Shown here: one piece after another, positions 13,079 to 23,612 of the stretch
How positions within the stretch are numbered: position 1 is the stretch's first letter
How the letters are laid out: every line of letters starts with the position of its first letter
Virus record (IMG/VR): IMGVR_UViG_3300022744_000096
Coordinates: 1 to 24,512 of that record
Strand: one strand, 5' to 3'
From: a virus
DNA length: 24,512 nucleotides
The notes under the pieces: model-generated
Told to the model about the DNA's origin: nothing
The model's input: only the letters and a program-made list of their open reading frames with translations
The model's database searches: none
Position numbers and translations under genes: made by a program

Positions 13079-13092
13079 CGGAGTTGCTCCCT

Positions 13093-13989
13093 TTAGGCGA
13101 CCCGCAGGCCGCGGACGACGACGATGCAGGCGACGTTCGCCGCGCTCGCCTTGGTTCGGGTGATCTTGAGGGTGCCGCCGGCGGCGACGGTCTGTTGCGC
13201 ATCGTCGATCGTGCCAGCACGCACGACAACCTTGTCGGCGACGTTGATGCTCATGGCGTCGGTGATGGCGGTGGATCCATTCTTCACCGTGATGGTGTCG
13301 CTGGCGCCACCGGCGCCGGCCGTCTTGATGACGGTCACGTCGGTGATCATGGTTTTGTGGGTCAGGACGACGTCGACGTCTCCGGTCGCGCCGTCTGCAA
13401 CGGCGATCCGGTGCACGACGTACAGGCCGCCGACCACGTTGGCGTCGGCCGTGTTGGCGACCTGGGTGCCGGTCAGCACGCCCGCGAGGGTGGTGCCGGT
13501 CGAGCTCTTGAGGTCGGTGTCCAATGCCTGGCGAGTGGTGATCTCGCTGGCAAGGGCAGTGCCGAACGCGGGGCCGATGTGGACCCAAACGCCCGAGCTG
13601 TCCACGCGGCGGACGATGCCAGCCACGGACTTGCTGGTGCTGGTGTGGCAGACGGTCGTGTCGTCGGCGATGTAGCAGAACGCCTCGACGTCAGCCTGAA
13701 CGACCAGATCGTCGCTCTTGTTGGCGAAGCAGAACACGCCACGACGGACGCGGGCATTCATGTCGCCAGCTTGGCCGGCCGAGTTGTCCTGGTATCCCTC
13801 GACCACCTCGCCGGTGAAGTCGAAAATGCCAACGACGGCCTTGCCAGTGGCGGCGGTGCCGGGTTCGACGTAGCCGGCGGCATTGAGAACCGCGATGCCG
13901 CCCTGGTACGCCTTGACGGCGGCCTGGGGGTAGTACGCGAGATCGGGTTGCTCGTCGGAGGTTCGGGGAGCTGCAGCAGTGAGTGCCAT
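13093..13989 (-). CDS. Head decoration protein, two-domain
   Basis: The protein is 298 aa. Residues 15-150 resemble DUF2190/head-decoration-like proteins, with KAYQGGIAVLNAAGYVEPGTAATGKAVVGIF, a pattern seen in capsid stabilising proteins encoded just before the major capsid gene. Residues about 190-298 form a separate beta domain (HRIAVADGATGDVDVVL, then KTAGAGGASDTITVKNGST, ending in GLRVA) that looks like a surface-exposed add-on often found in environmental phage genomes. It starts with an ATG at 13989, 15 bases after the protease/scaffold stop, and stops 14 bases before the capsid start. It probably binds the outside of the capsid. The two-domain reading is by eye. Confidence 0.7.
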   Translation of the reverse strand: MALTAAAPRTSDEQPDLAYYPQAAVKAYQGGIAVLNAAGYVEPGTAATGKAVVGIFDFTGEVVEGYQDNSAGQAGDMNARVRRGVFCFANKSDDLVVQADVEAFCYIADDTTVCHTSTSKSVAGIVRRVDSSGVWVHIGPAFGTALASEITTRQALDTDLKSSTGTTLAGVLTGTQVANTADANVVGGLYVVHRIAVADGATGDVDVVLTHKTMITDVTVIKTAGAGGASDTITVKNGSTAITDAMSINVADKVVVRAGTIDDAQQTVAAGGTLKITRTKASAANVACIVVVRGLRVA

Positions 13990-14004
13990 GATGTTTTGCC
14001 TTCC

Positions 14005-14610
14005 TTACTTGGCCGAAGTGGCGGCCTGCTTGAACGCGGCCTCGCCGCCGAATTGACCGGCGCAGTTGCGCGCGATTGCGATTTGCATGGGGTCCACGGC
14101 GCTAGCCGCGACGGGCTCGTGGCTGGTGCCAGTGAGCGACACGATCGGCTCCTTGGGCATGAACGCCTTCAGGGCGGACAGGGCCTTGGTGGTGCCGAGT
14201 TCCTTCTTGAGAGCGACGAAGCTGTCCTTCATCGCCGGGGGCAACTTGCCTTCCTTGACCGACGAATCGCAGAGCGTGGTGAACTCGGTCTCTTCGGCCG
14301 CGGCCTTGGAGGCTGCGATCTCGGCCTTCAGCGCGACCAGTTCGGCCGCTTGGGTGGCCATCAGACTGACGGCGCCCATGGCCTCAGTCACCGACGCTTT
14401 GCCGGTGGTGGCGATTACGTGGCTGCGCAGGGCCTTCAGCTCCTTGTCGCCTTCGTGCTCGCTCGACTCTTCCTTGGCCCAGTCGTCGAACGACTTGCCG
14501 GTCTTCTTGAGGCAGAGGGCGCTCATGCCTTCGCACTTGCCCTTCAGCTCTTCGCGTTCCTTCTCGGCCTGGGACAGCTTCTCTCGGAGTGCCTTCAGTT
14601 CCTCTTCCAT
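14005..14610 (-). CDS. Scaffold protein from in-frame internal start (Mu Z-like)
   Basis: Within the protease gene an in-frame ATG at 14610 (residue 183) is preceded by AAAGGAC eight bases upstream, a good ribosome site. It opens exactly at the junction between the protease domain and the coiled-coil scaffold (MEEELKALREKLSQAEKE). The product would be 201 aa. Mu expresses its scaffold gpZ from an internal start in gene I in the same way. The N-terminal 30 residues form a coiled coil and the C-terminal end (PMQIAIARNCAGQFGG) is likely to contact the capsid. The presence of both a domain border and a ribosome site supports the call. Confidence 0.65.
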   Translation of the reverse strand: MEEELKALREKLSQAEKEREELKGKCEGMSALCLKKTGKSFDDWAKEESSEHEGDKELKALRSHVIATTGKASVTEAMGAVSLMATQAAELVALKAEIAASKAAAEETEFTTLCDSSVKEGKLPPAMKDSFVALKKELGTTKALSALKAFMPKEPIVSLTGTSHEPVAASAVDPMQIAIARNCAGQFGGEAAFKQAATSAK

Positions 14611-15156
14611 GTCTTTGTCCTTTGTTGGGGCTGTTTCGCTCGCGGCCACCAACGGCGCGATCTCGTAGGACGCGGGCAAATTGGTCAGCGCGAAGTTGAT
14701 CAGCGCGGCGATCCGACCGCTCTCGTCGGGCACGAATGCCGGGCTGTAGAGGCGGTATTCACCGGACTCCAAACGCTCGCGGGCACGGTCGGCCCACTGG
14801 ATCTGCGTCGCCCAGCACTCGGGTCCGCCGTTGGCGTCGCGTCGAATCTCGGGCACCCACTGCGTGGCCGAGGCCGGCGCTTCCATGGGGGGCGTCGCAA
14901 GGGACTGGTGCTCGTAGTCACCCATCAGCGGGACGCTGTGGTTACGAGCCGCGTAGGCCTCCATCACGAGCTGGGCCGCGACGTCATCGAAAAGGAAGTC
15001 GCCCTTACTGGTGTGATTCAGGCCTGCGTGAAACAGGCGAATCTCAGTGGGGGCGGTGCGCTTGCCGTCTTGGCCAGCGTCGAACGAGGCAACAGCATAG
15101 GCCGCAAGTGCGACCAGTTTCTCGTGCTCACGTTGCCGGCGCTTTGCTTCGCCCAT
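14005..15156 (-). CDS. Mu gpI-like prohead protease with C-terminal scaffold
   Basis: The protein is 383 aa (Mu gpI is about 360). The ATG at 15156 follows GAGGGG by one base. Residues 25-175 form the protease part of the Mu-like I family, with RLFHAGLNHTSKGDFLFDD, the segment HSVPLMGDYEHQSLA, and YRLYSPAFVPDESGRIAALINFALTNLPA, a block characteristic of this family. Residues 183-383 are a charged helical scaffold (EEELKALREKLSQAEKERE) with its own internal start. The protease processes the prohead and the scaffold organises capsid assembly. A promoter-like element immediately precedes the gene, so the capsid block can be expressed separately from the portal block. Confidence 0.85.
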   Translation of the reverse strand: MGEAKRRQREHEKLVALAAYAVASFDAGQDGKRTAPTEIRLFHAGLNHTSKGDFLFDDVAAQLVMEAYAARNHSVPLMGDYEHQSLATPPMEAPASATQWVPEIRRDANGGPECWATQIQWADRARERLESGEYRLYSPAFVPDESGRIAALINFALTNLPASYEIAPLVAASETAPTKDKDMEEELKALREKLSQAEKEREELKGKCEGMSALCLKKTGKSFDDWAKEESSEHEGDKELKALRSHVIATTGKASVTEAMGAVSLMATQAAELVALKAEIAASKAAAEETEFTTLCDSSVKEGKLPPAMKDSFVALKKELGTTKALSALKAFMPKEPIVSLTGTSHEPVAASAVDPMQIAIARNCAGQFGGEAAFKQAATSAK

Positions 15157-15172
15157 CCCCTCGGGTGGTACG
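15154..15172 (-). repeat. 19-base repeat copy 1, at the protease start
   Basis: CGTACCACCCGAGGGGATG (minus strand) is identical to 19865-19847. It includes the -10-like TACCAC, the ribosome site GAGGGG and the start codon of the protease gene. Confidence 0.9.
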
Positions 15173-15193
15173 GGCGATCACGGTTGCGCGAAA
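15165..15193 (-). promoter_or_regulatory. Phage promoter-like element before protease gene
   Basis: Minus strand: TTTCGC at 15193-15188, then GCAACC, 17-base spacing to TACCAC at 15170-15165, followed 8 bases later by the ATG. GCAA and CGTACCACCCGA occur at the same positions in the portal element. The -35 is the poorest of the three copies. It is back to back with the rightward promoter at 15201. Confidence 0.6.
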
Positions 15194-15200
15194 TGACCCA

Positions 15201-15228
15201 TTGACCGCTGCACTCAGTTTGTTACAAC
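15201..15228 (+). promoter_or_regulatory. Rightward promoter of the inserted cassette
   Basis: TTGACC at 15201-15206 and TACAAC at 15223-15228 are spaced by 16 bases. The first start codon (15236) is 7 bases after the -10 box, so the transcript would begin at or next to the ATG. The -35 and its flank (TTGACCGC) match the leftward elements before portal and parB. Confidence 0.6.
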
Positions 15229-15235
15229 TCAAGGC

Positions 15236-15487
15236 ATGAGACTTCTGCCGAATAACAAACCACTCGACAGCGCGACCACCGCCATTGTCCGCGAATATGT
15301 TTCGCGTCGGGGCGAACGAGGGGCGGCCGATCGCCTATGCGTATCGCGCGGTACGATTCGGGGAATTATGGCGGAGAAGCCGATCCACCTGAGCATCAGC
15401 GTGTGCGTGCGGGCGATGCTGGGGCTTCCGGTGCGCGAAGAAGTTTTGAACGAAAGCGATATGGCCGAACTGGATGGTGCCCAATGA
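15236..15487 (+). CDS. Small helix-turn-helix protein, cassette gene 1
   Basis: The protein is 83 aa, first gene of the rightward cassette, starting at an ATG with only a weak AAGG before it. Residues about 18-58 form a helix-turn-helix candidate (VREYVSRRGERGAADRLCVSRGTIRGIMAEKPI), with the AADRLCVS-GTIR pattern of a recognition helix region, followed by a short helix with LGLPVREEV. It resembles small Cro/XRE-type regulators in shape, though the family is not named with confidence. It may regulate the divergent promoter 80 bases away. It overlaps the next gene by ATGA. Confidence 0.65.
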   Translation: MRLLPNNKPLDSATTAIVREYVSRRGERGAADRLCVSRGTIRGIMAEKPIHLSISVCVRAMLGLPVREEVLNESDMAELDGAQ

Positions 15488-15699
15488 TGGCCAGGGCAAC
15501 AGCGAGACTGGATGACGTTCAGTGCGACCGGGTGAAGGCGCTCATTGAAAAGAAGGGGCTACACCACGCATCCCGGATCTTCGACATCTGCCCGGACAGC
15601 TTGAAGGTGGCCAGCCTTGGCGGTGCCATCTCGAGCGGGACCGTGGCCAAGGTGGTGCTCAAGATACGGGAGCGGGACGAGGCGGGGAAGACGCCGTGA
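15484..15699 (+). CDS. Small helix-turn-helix protein, cassette gene 2
   Basis: The protein is 71 aa, starting at 15484 in an ATGA overlap with the first gene (the frame is open upstream but inside that gene). Residues about 13-56 (VKALIEKKGLHHASRIFDICPDSLKVASLGGAISSGTVAKVVL) follow the same layout as the first cassette protein: a helix, a Gly-containing turn, an 'A..F.I..DSLK' helix, and a helix beginning at SSGTV. This suggests a diverged tandem duplicate. The likely role is DNA binding, perhaps as a partner or antagonist of the first. No specific family is recognised. Confidence 0.6.
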   Translation: MMARATARLDDVQCDRVKALIEKKGLHHASRIFDICPDSLKVASLGGAISSGTVAKVVLKIRERDEAGKTP

Positions 15700-15923
15700 A
15701 ACCCGGCGAGCGCCTCGTGTGGGCCGCAGCGTTTGCCCAGGTGATTGCCACCGTTGACGATCCGGCCGCAGACTTGCGCCTGCTGCTTACAAAAGCTGTC
15801 TGTTGCGCTCACCTGGCCGTGCGAGGCCTGCGGGCGGCCAATTATCTCGCGACCAATAATGCAACCGGCGAAAACGCCGAGGCCTGGGCGATGGCGCAAG
15901 ACATGGCCGGGTCCACCAACTGA
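15696..15923 (+). CDS. Small helical protein, cassette gene 3, unknown
   Basis: The protein is 75 aa, starting at 15696 in an ATGA overlap with cassette gene 2. It is Ala-rich and mostly helical (ERLVWAAAFAQVIAT, LLLTKAVCCAHLAVRGLRAANYLA), with no charged tail and no clear membrane segment. The family is not recognised. Similar tiny Ala-rich phage proteins of unknown function occur between structural genes. Tight coupling to both neighbours supports expression as part of the cassette. Confidence 0.55.
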   Translation: MKPGERLVWAAAFAQVIATVDDPAADLRLLLTKAVCCAHLAVRGLRAANYLATNNATGENAEAWAMAQDMAGSTN

Positions 15924-15936
15924 ACCGAGGTAACCC

Positions 15937-16368
15937 ATGGGCGACCACAAGACCAATCCCCGTTCCATCGTGAAAGACATCCTGCCCCCGCTGCTGCCAC
16001 CGGGTTGCCGCGCTGGCGTCGACATCCAGCCGCGGGTTGTGCCCAAGGTCAACGTGCTGCTGGTTGGGCCCGATGACTTCCGGTTTGTCGACGACGACTG
16101 CGAGGTGTTCGTCAATGACAAGTGGGAGGTAGTACCCGAAGGCACCGTGGTCCACCCCACAGATCAACCGCTGCCGCCCGAGCTGTGTGACGTGGTGGTG
16201 ATGCTGCGCACGCTGGTCGCGGAGCCTGGATCGCGCGGGATAGTCGTCCCGGGGCAGTCTCCAAGCGGCAACGTCTCGGCACTGGAGTTTGCCGAGCTGG
16301 GACGCGCGCCGCTGTTGGAGTGGCAGGCGCGGCACTTGGGGGCGCTGCGGGGAAGCGAGGTCGGGTGA
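15937..16368 (+). CDS. Cassette gene 4, unknown
   Basis: The protein is 143 aa. Its ATG follows a good ribosome site (GAGGT) 5 bases before it, the best in the cassette. The sequence is acidic and beta-leaning (NVLLVGPDDFRFVDDDCEVFVNDKWEVV), then changes to a helical stretch (ELCDVVVMLRTLVAEPG) and ends in GRAPLLEWQARHLGALRG. No known domain is recognised. The compact acidic fold and independent ribosome site suggest a soluble protein made in some quantity. It overlaps the next start by one base (TGATG). Confidence 0.6.
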   Translation: MGDHKTNPRSIVKDILPPLLPPGCRAGVDIQPRVVPKVNVLLVGPDDFRFVDDDCEVFVNDKWEVVPEGTVVHPTDQPLPPELCDVVVMLRTLVAEPGSRGIVVPGQSPSGNVSALEFAELGRAPLLEWQARHLGALRGSEVG

Positions 16369-16535
16369 TGCTCGGCAAGGTGACCGAATGGGGACCACCG
16401 CCGCCGCTCCCCGATGACATTCGCGATCTGCCTCACTTCGACAAGTTCGTCGCGCACTGCATGCTTTTGCCTCCCGGGGTCCGTTCGATGACCTACGGCG
16501 AGTTTTGCCAGGACGTTTCCGAGGGACTGCGCTGA
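16368..16535 (+). CDS. Cassette gene 5, tiny protein, unknown
   Basis: The protein is 55 aa, with its start at 16368 overlapping the previous stop (TGATG) and its stop overlapping the next start in the same way. It is Pro-rich at the N-terminus (WGPPPPLPDDIRDLPHFDKFVAHC) and then a short helical end (MTYGEFCQDVSEGL). The pattern 'LP..FD.FVAHCMLLP' is suggestive of a small interaction peptide, but no family is known to me. Reality is supported mainly by the precise overlaps on both sides. Confidence 0.5.
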   Translation: MLGKVTEWGPPPPLPDDIRDLPHFDKFVAHCMLLPPGVRSMTYGEFCQDVSEGLR

Positions 16536-17113
16536 TGAACTCGGTTTCGCACGAGGGTCAGCTCGTCTTGTTCAGGAACGCCACCGGAGAAGGGTTTGTC
16601 CAGCGCCACGACGCTGCGGCAGGTGTCCCCGTTTATCTCGTTGGCGCCGGAACCGTTGCGAAGATCAGCAGCATTGTCGACGGCCAGAGCATCGGCCGCG
16701 CTGTACTTCCCGTCGGAACGTATCAAGAGGAAGTTGTCAGGGAGCATCCCGGTTGCATCATCGTGGCGATGCGCAAGGGGATTCCGGCGTCGCATGTCTC
16801 GGCGTTCTTTGACGAGGCAGAGGGAGCGCGCGATCGCGCAATCGTCGGGTTCGCCACCGATGCCCCGCAACCACCAGAGCCGCGCGAGCCGATCAGGTGC
16901 CCGCACGGCAGCGAGATGGCGGCGCTCGTGGCGATGCTGGAAAGGGCAGGCATCCCGTACGATTGGAGCCCCGACGGCTCGGGGACCGAGGTTGCGATAG
17001 GCAACAGCGGGGAGAGCGCGCCGCCGCGGTTCTACATGGGACATGGCGCTGGGGCTTCCTTCCAGTTCGACAGCTCGGGAACGCTCATTCGTCTTGAGCT
17101 TTCGGGGGATTGA
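16535..17113 (+). CDS. Cassette gene 6, unknown soluble protein
   Basis: The protein is 192 aa, the largest of the cassette, with its start chosen at 16535 because it overlaps the preceding stop (TGATG). Residues 1-95 are mixed alpha/beta (GQLVLFRNATGEGFVQRHD, VAKISSIVDGQSIGRAVLP, HPGCIIVAMRKGIPASHVSAFF). After a Pro-rich linker (PQPPEPREP) comes a second part with PHGSEMAALVAMLERAGIPYDWSPD and a C-terminal beta pair. No catalytic residues are obvious and I do not recognise it. The two-domain layout and size make it the leading candidate for the functional effector of the cassette. Confidence 0.6.
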   Translation: MNSVSHEGQLVLFRNATGEGFVQRHDAAAGVPVYLVGAGTVAKISSIVDGQSIGRAVLPVGTYQEEVVREHPGCIIVAMRKGIPASHVSAFFDEAEGARDRAIVGFATDAPQPPEPREPIRCPHGSEMAALVAMLERAGIPYDWSPDGSGTEVAIGNSGESAPPRFYMGHGAGASFQFDSSGTLIRLELSGD

Positions 17114-19895: not shown

Positions 19896-21290
19896 TCAGC
19901 GGCGGGGGCGCCAGAGGGTTTGCGTGGGGGCCTGGTAGGGTTCGGGCGCCGGAGCGACCAGCATGTCGGTCAGGATGTGCACCAGGGCGTCGATGTCGTC
20001 GGGCGAGTCCTCGGCTTGTTCCTTGGGGTCCCAACTACACATGCGATCTTCCAGCTTGGTGAACATCCCAATGTGGTGAACCTTGCCCTGCTCGTACAGG
20101 GCCGACACCGGCTCGGCCCGTAGCTTCTTGCCGTCCTTGGCGTGGACGCCGCGGTAGTTCAGGCGCTTGGCCTGGTCGTGCGTGCGCAGCAGCGATTCGA
20201 TCCAGTCGCCGCCCTGGTTGGTCTCACCGATGACCGCGTTGGCCCCGCGGCGCGTGTACACGTCCAGCACCTTCTCGCAGGTCTCGTTGGGCGAGTAGAC
20301 GTCGGTGGCGTCCTCCAGCACGAACCCGTGCAACTCGGGCTGGCCCTTGCACATGCACATGCCGCAGCCGGCGGCCACGATGCCGGCCTCGTCGCTGTTC
20401 TTGCTGTTTGTGGTGGACGGGTCGAGGCCCACGCCCACCTTGGAAAAAACCACCCCCATCGACGCGAACTCGGCCAGGGTCAGGCGGCACCTGTCGATCT
20501 GCGCCCGCTTCCACATGGCCCCGGGGTTGTCGTCGAGAATGACGGCGTCGATCTCCTGCTGCCCCAACCGCGTGCCCTCGTACTTGTCGCGCACGCGCTT
20601 GAGGAACTTGGGCGCCAGGTTGCGCTTGCTTTCGTAGGTGCTGCCGGTGGTGGTGACGGTGCTGGGGTCGGCTTCTAGCTCGCGCAGGAACTTCAAGCCT
20701 CGCGGCGTGCTGGTGATCAGCGCCTGCGGGTTGATGCCGATGCGCAGGCCGAACTGGAGCATGTCCCACGTCTCTTCGAGTCGCGCCCACGCCGCCAGCT
20801 CGTCGCACCACGCGAAGTCGTGCTGCGGGCCTCGCAATCGATCGGGCTCTTCGGCGCTGTACAGGGCCACCTGGGCGCCGTTGGGCCACGTAACCCGGCG
20901 CTTCGATGGCTCGTAGACCGGGCGATTCCACGGGGGGCACACGGCGATCAGGCCTGACGTGCCCTCGACCATGACGTCGCGAGCATCGGCCGCTGTCGGG
21001 GCCACGAGCGCGCCACGACCGCAGCCGTCGTGCTCTATCTTCCAGCGCACCCATTCGGCGCCCGTTCTCGTCTTGCCGAATCCACGTCCCGCGCGCAGGT
21101 GCCACGTGGACCAGTCGCCCAGCGGGGCTAGCTGCTTCTTGCGGGCGATGAACGACCAGTCGAACTGCAGCTCAAGCTGGGCCTGGCGCGGGTACGACTC
21201 CCACAGCTCGAGGAAAGCTTCCTCCCCGAGTTCGTCTATCGCCCGTTGGAGCTCCGAACGGTCGTCGGGGTCACTTCGCGCCAGCGTCAT
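19896..21290 (-). CDS. Terminase large subunit
   Basis: The protein is 464 aa from the ATG at 21290, which overlaps the small-subunit gene by 20 bases; a frame open further upstream is a shadow. The ATPase has Walker A at 67-74 (AGRGFGKT), a Walker B-like DFAWCDE at 158-164, and a LITSTPRGLKF coupling motif. The C-terminal RNase H-like nuclease shows GVGLDPST (first acidic residue), NAVIGETNQGGDW, and DDIDALVHILTDML near the end. It cleaves concatemeric or host-joined DNA and drives packaging through the portal. The Walker A form is that of small, GTA-like or HK97-type terminases. Downstream lies the portal. Confidence 0.92.
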   Translation of the reverse strand: MTLARSDPDDRSELQRAIDELGEEAFLELWESYPRQAQLELQFDWSFIARKKQLAPLGDWSTWHLRAGRGFGKTRTGAEWVRWKIEHDGCGRGALVAPTAADARDVMVEGTSGLIAVCPPWNRPVYEPSKRRVTWPNGAQVALYSAEEPDRLRGPQHDFAWCDELAAWARLEETWDMLQFGLRIGINPQALITSTPRGLKFLRELEADPSTVTTTGSTYESKRNLAPKFLKRVRDKYEGTRLGQQEIDAVILDDNPGAMWKRAQIDRCRLTLAEFASMGVVFSKVGVGLDPSTTNSKNSDEAGIVAAGCGMCMCKGQPELHGFVLEDATDVYSPNETCEKVLDVYTRRGANAVIGETNQGGDWIESLLRTHDQAKRLNYRGVHAKDGKKLRAEPVSALYEQGKVHHIGMFTKLEDRMCSWDPKEQAEDSPDDIDALVHILTDMLVAPAPEPYQAPTQTLWRPRR

Positions 21291-21750
21291 TTGCCGGCGC
21301 CTCGGGCTGTGGTTCCGCCTCTTGCTGGGCCGCCTTGCGACGCTCGGCGATGGCCGCACGCAGGGTGTCGCCGATGCTGTCGGGGCCCAACGGGCTCATG
21401 CTGCCGTCTTCGCTGGACAGGTCGACCTGTTGTCTTGGGCGGCCGGCATACTGCTCGCGCAGGCCCTTGCGGGCGGCGTCGCTCTTGCCCAGGCCGGCGA
21501 TAACCTCACGATGGACCAGGGCATCGATCAGCGGCGTGTCCTCGGGCAGCCCGAGCTTCTTGACCATGGCCAGCTCGACCGATGTGGCCGCAGCACCCTC
21601 AAGAATCTTGGCGATACGCTCGACGCGCGTACGCCCGTTCTTGCCCGTCGGATTTCGCGAGGGGTCCCCCGGCTTGCTCTTGATCAGGTTGGCCAGGCTG
21701 TTGGGGTTCTTGCCGCGCTTGTCGGGCGGGAATGGGGAGTCGTCAGACAT
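21271..21750 (-). CDS. Terminase small subunit-like protein (DUF5681-like)
   Basis: The protein is 159 aa, with the ATG at 21750 overlapping the radical SAM stop by 8 bases and its own stop overlapping the large terminase. Near the N-terminus, KPGDPSRNPTGKNGRTR is a basic Gly/Pro/Asn element like the 'GNP-GRPKG' of DUF5681 small terminases. Residues 40-85 are helical and a later RKGLREQYAGRPRQQVDLS matches the family's C-terminal basic block. It probably recognises packaging sites and stimulates the large subunit. The role follows from position and motif; a generic DNA-binding regulator is the alternative. Confidence 0.7.
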   Translation of the reverse strand: MSDDSPFPPDKRGKNPNSLANLIKSKPGDPSRNPTGKNGRTRVERIAKILEGAAATSVELAMVKKLGLPEDTPLIDALVHREVIAGLGKSDAARKGLREQYAGRPRQQVDLSSEDGSMSPLGPDSIGDTLRAAIAERRKAAQQEAEPQPEAPANDAGAK

Positions 21751-23053
21751 CGGCGCTTGTCCTCTCGGCCTCTGCCCTCATCCTCCGAGCAACGGCGCGC
21801 AGTTTCTCCTTTTGCGTGAAGCTGGTTAGGAAGTCGGCCGGGTGGGGCTCGTCGATCTCGTACTTGCGTAGATAGGAAGCCAGATCGAAATGAGCCGACA
21901 ATCTGCGCACCTTGTCCGCGGCAGGATTGCTTTGCAGCTTAGGGGCAAAGCAGATCGCTTCCCAACACGCGTCCGTCGCGGCGGTTGCCCGTTCCGCCAC
22001 AACAGTCACCAAATGCGACCATGGACCCTCGTTGCTGAAGCTGTGCATTGCTCTCAGGTTGGGTCGATCAACGATCACCTGAGCGGATAGGTCACTCATC
22101 GTCGGGGCCAATCTGACCGGCTCCCATTGCATGGGGGTCAAGTTAGACGGACGGAATGGAGTCGACTGCAGAACTACGATGACCCTCCCCTTGGGCTGAG
22201 CCTCGGCGAACGTGGCATACAGCTCTTTCTTGTCAGCATCCGTCTCGGTCGGCATGTTGCTGATGTTGTAGGCAAGGACAGTGCTTGTTCCTCCGAACGA
22301 CCCAACATGTTCGATGCCCCCGATCACATCCGATCGGGTTATCCGCTTACCGTAGCATGCCCGTAGGCGCTGGGAGAACCCGTCGAGGGCACTGCGGATC
22401 CTGCCATGCTTGCGATCGATTCCCCTCAACCTATCCCAAGTTATTTCAGGCGAAGACGCTGCGACCGATGTCTGGATGTAGTCCCCCGCAGGTCCGCGAT
22501 ACTTTCGCGCCCATGAGTAGTGACAGAATTTGCACTTTCTCTTGCACCCAATGAACTGCTCGACCTTGCCGCAGACCTCATGGGGATACAACTCGGATTG
22601 CCCCATGATCACCGGACTAACGTCAGGAAGATTCATCACCGACGGATGTTCAAAGGGCCTGCCATCAACTGCTGCCTCGACCAACCGTAGGGCGAAAGAT
22701 TCGGACCTCCCGAATGCTGCATAGTCGATCAGATTTCTCACCACGTGCGGGTTCTGCATGCCTGCTCCACCTGCAACCACTCGAAAGGTTCGGCTGCCGC
22801 GTTTCCAGTCCGAACGCCTCCCGACTGCTTGGGTAAGAGCCAACATGTCGTAGGTTGATGTCATGGATACGAGCACCACCCTATGCTCGTGAGCCGATTC
22901 GGGTGAGCAATACCCAACCTGCAATCCGCCGCGCCTAAGGACGTCGGCGATCAGCTCAACACCCATGTTACCAAGTCCATCAAAAGATTCATCTTCGCTC
23001 CGCTGCTTGGCGGGGCGATAGACCAAGATCGCAACTTCACTACTTGTCGACAT
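21743..23053 (-). CDS. Radical SAM protein with degenerate B12-binding-type domain
   Basis: The protein is 436 aa from the ATG at 23053 (MSTSSEVAILVYRP), which overlaps parB by 14 bases. Residues 1-135 resemble a B12-binding Rossmann-type domain: an N-terminal strand, a GVELIADVLRRGGLQVGY helix-strand unit, SMTSTYD, VVAGGAGMQNP, and AAFGRSES matching the usual 'V-GEGE'. The DxHxxG cobalamin-ligand motif is absent. Residues 170-177 hold the CX3CX2C iron-sulfur motif (CKRKCKFC), and 262-271 (YNISNMPTET) corresponds to the later barrel motif. It would generate a 5'-deoxyadenosyl radical; the substrate is unknown. A C-terminal 120 residues are unassigned. GC content looks lower than in neighbouring genes. 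Confidence 0.75.
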   Translation of the reverse strand: MSTSSEVAILVYRPAKQRSEDESFDGLGNMGVELIADVLRRGGLQVGYCSPESAHEHRVVLVSMTSTYDMLALTQAVGRRSDWKRGSRTFRVVAGGAGMQNPHVVRNLIDYAAFGRSESFALRLVEAAVDGRPFEHPSVMNLPDVSPVIMGQSELYPHEVCGKVEQFIGCKRKCKFCHYSWARKYRGPAGDYIQTSVAASSPEITWDRLRGIDRKHGRIRSALDGFSQRLRACYGKRITRSDVIGGIEHVGSFGGTSTVLAYNISNMPTETDADKKELYATFAEAQPKGRVIVVLQSTPFRPSNLTPMQWEPVRLAPTMSDLSAQVIVDRPNLRAMHSFSNEGPWSHLVTVVAERATAATDACWEAICFAPKLQSNPAADKVRRLSAHFDLASYLRKYEIDEPHPADFLTSFTQKEKLRAVARRMRAEAERTSADV

Positions 23054-23612
23054 AGCGAAACCCGCATTTAGGGCACGTCGACAATTTGTCACCGGTCGAA
23101 TCCTCACCCGTCAGGTTGCCAAGCTCATCGTCATTGGCGGACTCCATATCAGCCAGCTCCTTCTCCAGCGCTCCCAGCTCCAACTCCGCAAACCCCTCGA
23201 CGTCCTCCAGCTCCTTGAGCTGCGCCAGCGCGTCCTCGGTGAAGTCTCCGCCGATGTGCGGGTTGTTGGCCACGAGGTTCGCCATGCGCTGCTTGTCCTC
23301 GTCCCAGTCCACGAAACGCACGCGGAAGCGCTCGCCGGTCTTGGGATGCAGGACGTAGCCATCGGCGCCGGTGCGCACCACCTCGACGGCACCGGCCGCG
23401 CGTAGGCGCTCGAGCCGCTGGTGGGCGCCGACGATCTGGCCGGTGCGATCGTTGAATACGATGCCAGACAGATCGCCGAACGCCTCCAGCGACACGCCAA
23501 GGCCCGCCCGGGCGGCGGCGCTCATCTTGCGCGGGTTGCGCGGGTCAGGTGCCAGCGCATCGAGCGGGACGCGAATCGATTCGACTCCAGTTCCTGGTTT
23601 AGACTTTGCCAC
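23040..23612 (-). CDS. ParB/Srx-like nuclease-domain protein with C-terminal CxxC
   Basis: The protein is 190 aa, starting at a GTG (23612). Residues 10-75 form a ParB N-terminal-like domain: IRVPLDALAPDPRNPRK, then LEAFGDLSGIVFNDRTGQIVGAHQRLERL, where GAHQR replaces the usual G-H-R ligand motif. A middle helical segment with DWDEDKQRMANLVANNPHIGGDF is often seen in phage ParB-like proteins. An acidic linker leads to a C-terminal CPKCGF (180-185), a half zinc ribbon. The family binds CTP or DNA or cleaves it; in phages it is often next to or fused with DNA-modifying enzymes. It is the first gene of the leftward late cluster, with a promoter-like element directly upstream. Confidence 0.75.
   Translation of the reverse strand: MAKSKPGTGVESIRVPLDALAPDPRNPRKMSAAARAGLGVSLEAFGDLSGIVFNDRTGQIVGAHQRLERLRAAGAVEVVRTGADGYVLHPKTGERFRVRFVDWDEDKQRMANLVANNPHIGGDFTEDALAQLKELEDVEGFAELELGALEKELADMESANDDELGNLTGEDSTGDKLSTCPKCGFRYVDK

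Follow-up and report, generated by a model that had tools for sequence, protein, structure and literature searches.

Why a ParB-like gene should be coupled to a radical SAM (rSAM) gene directly in front of the packaging genes of a phage is the question raised by IMG/VR virus record IMGVR_UViG_3300022744_000096 (24,512 bp, 64% GC; this whole stretch of DNA is referred to as the window). The late genes on its minus strand include a Mu-type portal, MuF, protease, tail sheath and terminase. On the same strand, the ParB-like CDS (P0002; 23040..23612; 190 aa, GTG start), an orphan phage ParB, is followed by the rSAM gene (P0001; 21743..23053; 436 aa, cobalamin class), by the small terminase subunit TerS (21271..21750), assigned by its position between rSAM and TerL, and by the large subunit TerL (19896..21290; Pfam Terminase_6N 6.6e-25, Terminase_6C 6.7e-8). 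TerS gave no family match of its own in Pfam or PHROG and resembles the TerS-position ORFs of contigs L010 and L011. The rSAM start was set to the ATG at 23053, with the stop at 21743, on the basis of homologs and the conserved overlap with ParB; the mechanically listed ORF begins upstream, at a GTG (23107). The ParB stop and the rSAM start thereby overlap by 14 nt (23040..23053, minus strand), an arrangement suggestive of translational coupling, and rSAM and TerS by 8 nt (21743-21750); both overlaps had been reported in the first-pass annotation and were confirmed. An inverted repeat (TTGTCGAC/GTCGACAA; window 23020-23093) spans the rSAM start codon, with a predicted folding energy of -22.6 kcal/mol, and is not conserved in the relatives.

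The class of the enzyme was assigned by using motifs and profiles. A CX3CX2C [4Fe-4S]/AdoMet motif (C170KRKCKFC177; 22523..22546, minus strand) was found, in which Cys170, Cys174, Cys177 and F176 are invariant in 8/8 full-length members (alignment A5); of the remaining cysteines in these eight proteins, two are invariant, Cys49 and Cys368. Pfam Radical_SAM gave 1e-3 with the window protein alone, below cut-off, and matched nine of the ten family members (best 3.1e-6), as did Radical_SAM_N2 (9/10, best 2e-5). Cluster motif and partial TIM-barrel profile together place the protein in the radical SAM superfamily. Its N-terminal part (about residues 28-160; 22574..22972, minus strand) was delimited as a Rossmann/B12-binding-like region by the family's Pfam matches and hhalign; Pfam B12-binding matched eight of the ten members (best 7.3e-5), the window protein itself lying under the curated cut-off. 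Alignment of the family with cellular B12-type rSAMs from genomes by using hhalign gave 97.4% (E 9.7e-12) over residues 28-318; the negative controls gave 0.1-0.5% (0.5% for the window protein against DUF5131), and the range across DNA methyltransferases, DUF5131 and the phage M6 rSAM was 0.1-0.7%. Two NCBIfam families were approached, both far below their curated cut-offs: TIGR03960 (2.1e-9, 36.5 bits; cut-off 462 bits) and TIGR04014, or MgmA (14.6 bits; cut-off 360 bits; best match among the ten members 1.3e-9), so that the window protein stands outside both families proper. A PDB search with the family profile returned a single convincing chain, 9CCB (1.5e-4; the match covers the B12-binding domain), and none that was meaningful was found with the window sequence alone. 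This chain is MgmA, a B12-dependent rSAM C-methyltransferase that acts on a protein glutamine residue and holds cobalamin without a lower ligand (PMC11796369). The DxHxxG cobalamin motif is absent from every rSAM member aligned. The last ~120 residues matched nothing, and the AlphaFold model (10 sequences; pLDDT 49) was left out of the fold search. On these comparisons the rSAM is classed as a divergent cobalamin-class enzyme, related to the MgmA/TIGR03960 group and carrying a unique C-terminus; we infer that it uses cobalamin.

Besides the window, the rSAM was found on 11 further IMG/VR contigs (50-81% identity, one truncated): L002 (80%), L003 (C-terminal part only), L017-L022, L027/L034, L029 and L041, with L018 and L019 being close copies of each other. 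Neither a set of 50,697 named phages nor one of 72,556 plasmids yielded it, and it was likewise not found in GTDB species genomes searched with exact peptide patterns or 398 Pseudomonadota genomes searched with a profile, a result that falls short of proving its absence from cells. Comparison of the window gene with that of L002 (pN 0.145, pS 0.777) showed strong purifying selection; the gene is evidently maintained, because the proteins are still 79-90% alike although saturation of the synonymous sites has been reached or nearly so. Ten of the rSAM loci have readable upstream sequence and were treated as testable. At nine of these ParB and rSAM overlap by 11-14 nt, and at L021 they are separated by a 143-nt gap instead. 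Purifying selection, the invariant CX3CX2C motif and this recurring overlap argue that the pair is not a product of chance.

The terminases and portals around the module fall in different, unrelated families, and in the named phages whose TerL is most similar (46-49% identity), neither ParB nor rSAM is annotated ahead of TerS. By these comparisons the pair is mobile cargo that has moved between unrelated packaging modules. The lower GC3 of the rSAM gene (0.65, vs 0.80-0.88 in ParB, terminase and portal) is consistent with cargo status. The contigs are metagenomic fragments, from which accessory genes may be missing.

Traces of rearrangement were seen at three places. At L003:1308-1772 an ORF with a ParB-like start (MMAKVKPATMRLD) passes straight into the rSAM sequence from residue 294 on. 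Most of ParB and rSAM has apparently been deleted in frame, unless the contig is misassembled; the resemblance to ParB covers a short stretch. At L007:1425-1817 an internal deletion in a ParB-methyltransferase fusion joins the ParB start to the methyltransferase C-terminus; the TerL of this contig resembles that of the window. The two independent inactivating deletions suggest that loss of the modification is sometimes favoured. At L019:526-928 a second, truncated ParB N-terminus and, after it, an ORF resembling an HNH nuclease stand immediately before the intact tail-bearing ParB, an arrangement that looks like a homing-type insertion or a module exchange scar.

The ParB-like protein matched PHROG ParB-like (2.5e-17) and the ParB-methyltransferase family phrog_498 (4.4e-17); the Pfam ParB_N threshold was not reached by the protein itself. 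It keeps the NPR and H-Q-R motifs (box II Arg66, GHQR-like), and Arg66 is invariant among 14 relatives; the profile match and the box II arginine place it in the ParB/Srx (ParB-CTPase) fold. The informative Foldseek matches of its model (pLDDT 72) were to ParB/Spo0J, at a level that was not significant (prob 0.80-0.93, E 0.03-0.08). A ParA-like protein, the partner that ParABS partition would call for, was not recognised among the ORFs examined, the immediate neighbours belonging to the TerS/rSAM set. The protein ends in a half zinc-ribbon-like tail (CPKCGFRYVDK; 23043..23075, minus strand), which is predicted to be an rSAM docking element. A ParB with a CPKCG[FH]x[YF] tail lies directly upstream of the rSAM at all ten testable loci, the variants being CPKCGF[ERTK]Y and, at L041, CPKCGHEF. 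A DNA-pattern scan of 2.9 M viral contigs with CPKCGFxY[AV]I matched seven contigs, all of them rSAM contigs (7/7); the pattern had been derived from the tails at rSAM loci, and the scan therefore shows specificity and is not an independent discovery. A scan with a longer DNA pattern retrieved no additional contigs.

The tail follows the enzyme rather than the protein that carries it. Across the rSAM loci the ParB bodies are 23-41% identical and the paired rSAMs 50-79% (window vs other loci, 23-29% and 50-54%; L020 vs L021, 32% and 71%; L034 vs L021, 41% and 79%), and since the bodies diverge far more than the rSAMs, the tail is taken to track the latter. The reverse case is given by contig L009, the ParB of which has the body nearest to that of the window outside the rSAM set and is identical to it at 124/154 positions of the body (residues 1-155; 81%) and at 6/35 of the tail; it is without the CPKCG tail, and its partner is an ABC-ATPase/GNAT protein (phrog_11143), a family that is also found downstream of ParB in Leptospira phage LE3. 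Tail and partner thus change together, and the two proteins can be read as a natural experiment. Related tails on ParBs beside Mom and CmoX made it less likely that the tail is confined to rSAM partners; only the narrow form CPKCGFxY[AV]I was rSAM-exclusive in the scan.

The partners of other phage ParBs were then compared. Bodies 54-64% identical to that of the window are fused to N6/N4 DNA methyltransferases before TerS (L004/5, L011/12, L013/14), with a DUF5131 gene intervening in the ParB-methyltransferase/TerS interval of L013/14; the ParB of L007 has methyltransferase remnants, and those of L010 and L006 stand beside DUF5131. These DUF5131 three-Cys proteins (L010:2493-3353, L013:7836-8660, L006:3398-4408) occupy the ParB-TerS interval or a position ahead of ParB, and DUF5131 is possibly another ParB-associated Fe-S enzyme. 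About 20 named phages were surveyed from the top-scoring matches, which does not amount to a census. In phiEf11 a ParB with a CPxC(G/K)xxF tail precedes Mom (PF25680, 1.8e-45), and in Arthrobacter phage Sonny a tail-bearing ParB is followed by one small gene and then Mom (4e-61). Mcat8 has the order tail-bearing ParB, SPPC-type C5 DNA methylase (3.6e-58), CmoA-like methyltransferase, TerS-like gene and terminase; tail-bearing ParBs also precede SPPC-type C5 DNA methylases in PaBG (1e-51; CmoA-like gene present) and Alexandra, an order that matches the carboxymethylcytosine pathway of PMC12783734. The CmoX-type methylase of this Erwinia phage is split by an apparent intein directly after the SPPC motif (L049:4695-6824). 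ParBs with other tails adjoin PAPS-reductase-like genes (035JT001, 031MP002, LR1, JNU_P7) or are fused to methyltransferases (Javan122, Heliusvirales phages). No recognised modifying enzyme adjoins the ParBs of Rasputia, Hendrix and cthkR962, which have CPxC near the C-terminus, or the tail-less ParB of P087. As a rule for named phages, the order of tail-bearing ParB and modifier is suggestive. In Escherichia phage 473R12 (L056:2477-4193) ParB is followed by a hypothetical protein that looks, by eye, like a glycosyltransferase, and then by terminase; it is possibly a further ParB-coupled modifier.

These associations point to a function that we consider somewhat more probable than all its alternatives together: a two-gene phage cargo module in which a ParB clamp, through a docking tail, serves a B12-class rSAM that modifies phage DNA, most likely by methylating an unreactive carbon. 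That DNA is modified is well supported by association, because Mom and CmoX come after tail-bearing ParBs and the closest bodies carry fused DNA methyltransferases. The nucleotide bound by the ParB-CTPase fold is CTP, ATP or GTP, and canonical ParB forms a clamp that closes on DNA (PMC12704722); in a ParB-methylase, the ParB domain nicks DNA (PMC5512222). By this model the ParB-like protein would act as an NTP-regulated clamp or loader on phage DNA, its CPKCGF tail would dock the partner, and the cobalamin-class rSAM recruited in this way would modify DNA bases. We infer that the enzyme would most probably move a methyl group onto an unreactive carbon of base or sugar, since class B methylases are the enzymes most closely related to it; no other step of the proposal is as weak. 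The presumed benefit would be resistance to host nucleases, by analogy with other phage DNA modifications.

The nearest solved relative, MgmA, methylates a protein residue, which calls for caution, and the target here might instead be a protein, as for MgmA and Mmp10, with ParB bringing the rSAM to DNA-bound targets; RNA polymerase, a packaging protein or a restriction factor of the host would be examples. The module adjoins packaging genes at all loci read; however, the flanking terminases and portals come from unrelated families and offer no constant neighbour as substrate, and the other partners of ParBs with a similar tail are DNA modifiers, so that we hold a protein target to be rather unlikely. 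That tRNA or some other RNA is modified, by a methylthiotransferase-like reaction or by methylation, with ParB as a separate regulator, is a reading that draws on the CmoA-type tRNA enzymes of neighbouring modification operons and on the fold features that B12-class rSAMs have in common with RNA-modifying rSAMs. It leaves the strict ParB linkage unexplained, and a MiaB/RimO-type auxiliary cysteine cluster is missing, only Cys49 and Cys368 being invariant beyond CX3CX2C; we regard it as very unlikely. The tail might also act like Mu Com, as a zinc-finger regulator on the mRNA at the overlapping start of a toxic modification gene, and not as a dock for the enzyme. The com and mom genes overlap, and Com is a zinc-finger translational activator; tail and rSAM start are likewise coded within about 40 nt, the overlap is kept in nine of ten loci, and the window rSAM start lies inside the stable hairpin predicted above. 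Yet the hairpin lacks conservation (other loci give about -9 to -15 kcal/mol), L021 keeps the tail despite its 143-nt gap, and in Sonny another gene separates ParB from Mom. A regulatory tail of this kind, which we judge quite unlikely, would be compatible with the DNA modification reading in any case.

The first-pass annotation had proposed modification of DNA before its entry into the head and had named thymidine hypermodification and 7-deazaguanine synthesis, both of which use rSAM enzymes. DNA modification found support in the genomic context of tail-bearing and fused ParBs; the named chemistries did not. Superfamily membership held, the enzyme being of B12 type and not of the thymidine-pathway or QueE type: the window protein shows no relation to the SPL-like M6 rSAM (gp053; hhalign 0.7%, BLASTP E 5.8), and neither QueE nor SPL family matches were obtained for the ten members in NCBIfam and Pfam. 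Kinase, pyrophosphorylase, PLP enzyme and thymidylate-synthase homolog went unrecognised in the partial contig (Pfam, PHROG), which bears out the remark that the usual partners of the thymidine pathway are missing and that the chemistry would differ. Either of these pathways is accordingly given almost no credence. The proposed timing, before packaging, did not find support: in L021 the pair sits between TerL and portal, and the analogous set of PaBG is annotated away from packaging genes in the stretch read.

DNA modification coupled to ParB in phages is already known, and the rSAM would be a new class of partner, working like the CmoX and Mom modules and belonging to neither. The phage M6/ViI thymidine hypermodification rSAM is likewise a phage enzyme with a proposed DNA-linked role; it is SPL-like, with no detectable relation to the window protein beyond the superfamily. 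Mom, a GNAT-like enzyme, stands just downstream of a CPxCGxxF-tailed ParB in phiEf11 and, behind its small gene, in Sonny, and differs from the rSAM in chemistry and fold. With the ParB-DNA methyltransferase fusions (phrog_498) the window has in common a ParB body up to 60% identical (L004/5), the place directly upstream of TerS and a putative DNA-modifying partner; unlike them, it has a separate rSAM gene, no Rossmann methyltransferase and a ParB with a CPKCGF tail. Methyltransferase matches in the window rSAM, ParB and TerS were confined to the ParB part of phrog_498. Radical SAM goes unmentioned in the main text of the survey of the ParB-CTPase fold (PMC12704722). CmoX carboxymethylates cytosine in DNA and frequently has a ParBc protein beside it; many CmoX contigs encode ParBc proteins, the function of which is called unknown by the authors (PMC12783734). 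The sets of PaBG, Mcat8 and Alexandra resemble the window in that a DNA-modifying enzyme with a gene of its own comes directly after the CPxC(G/K)xxF-tailed ParB, and in Mcat8 the packaging genes come next; their catalyst is an SPPC C5 cytosine methylase with CmoA, whereas the window has a B12-class rSAM, and neither SPPC-type DNA methylase nor CmoA was recognised in it. Likeness to the MgmA/TIGR03960 rSAMs extends, by profile comparison, over residues 28-318 (B12-like Rossmann domain, CX3CXaromaticC barrel and ...TPxQW region), and the window enzyme departs from them in its scores, its C-terminal ~120 residues, its phage location and its coupling to ParB. DUF5131 (phage Gp37/Gp68) is similar as a three-Cys protein in the ParB-TerS interval (L010, L013/14), without profile similarity to the rSAM. 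The window pair fits a proposed group composed of a CPxC(G/K)xx(F/Y)-tailed ParB and an adjacent SAM enzyme, with DNA as a predicted rSAM substrate.

New nucleic-acid chemistry and counter-defence are abundant among the modifications of phage DNA. If the proposal holds, a B12-class rSAM acting on DNA would permit C-C bond formation at unactivated DNA positions, of which we know of no described example. Full-text literature searches returned no B12-class rSAM acting on DNA, and neither such an enzyme as a ParB partner nor the correspondence of tail and partner was found in the literature searched. More tentatively, the module may be the first case of DNA modification that relies on a cobalamin-class rSAM, placing a C-linked methyl or radical mark at positions inaccessible to ordinary methyltransferases, with tail-bearing ParBs as a shared adaptor for interchangeable modifiers (Mom, CmoX, rSAM). 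The correspondence would give a simple adaptor role to many orphan phage ParB-like proteins, whose function beside DNA modifiers is given as unknown (PMC12783734), and tail-bearing ParBs offer a route to further modification enzymes.

Two minor features of the window were recorded. Small plus-strand ORFs without PHROG match are clustered amid the minus-strand late region (window 15236-17113) and are a probable moron cassette. A 706-aa open frame on the plus strand (window 13084-15204), antisense to the protease and adjoining structural genes, is probably a high-GC coding artefact.
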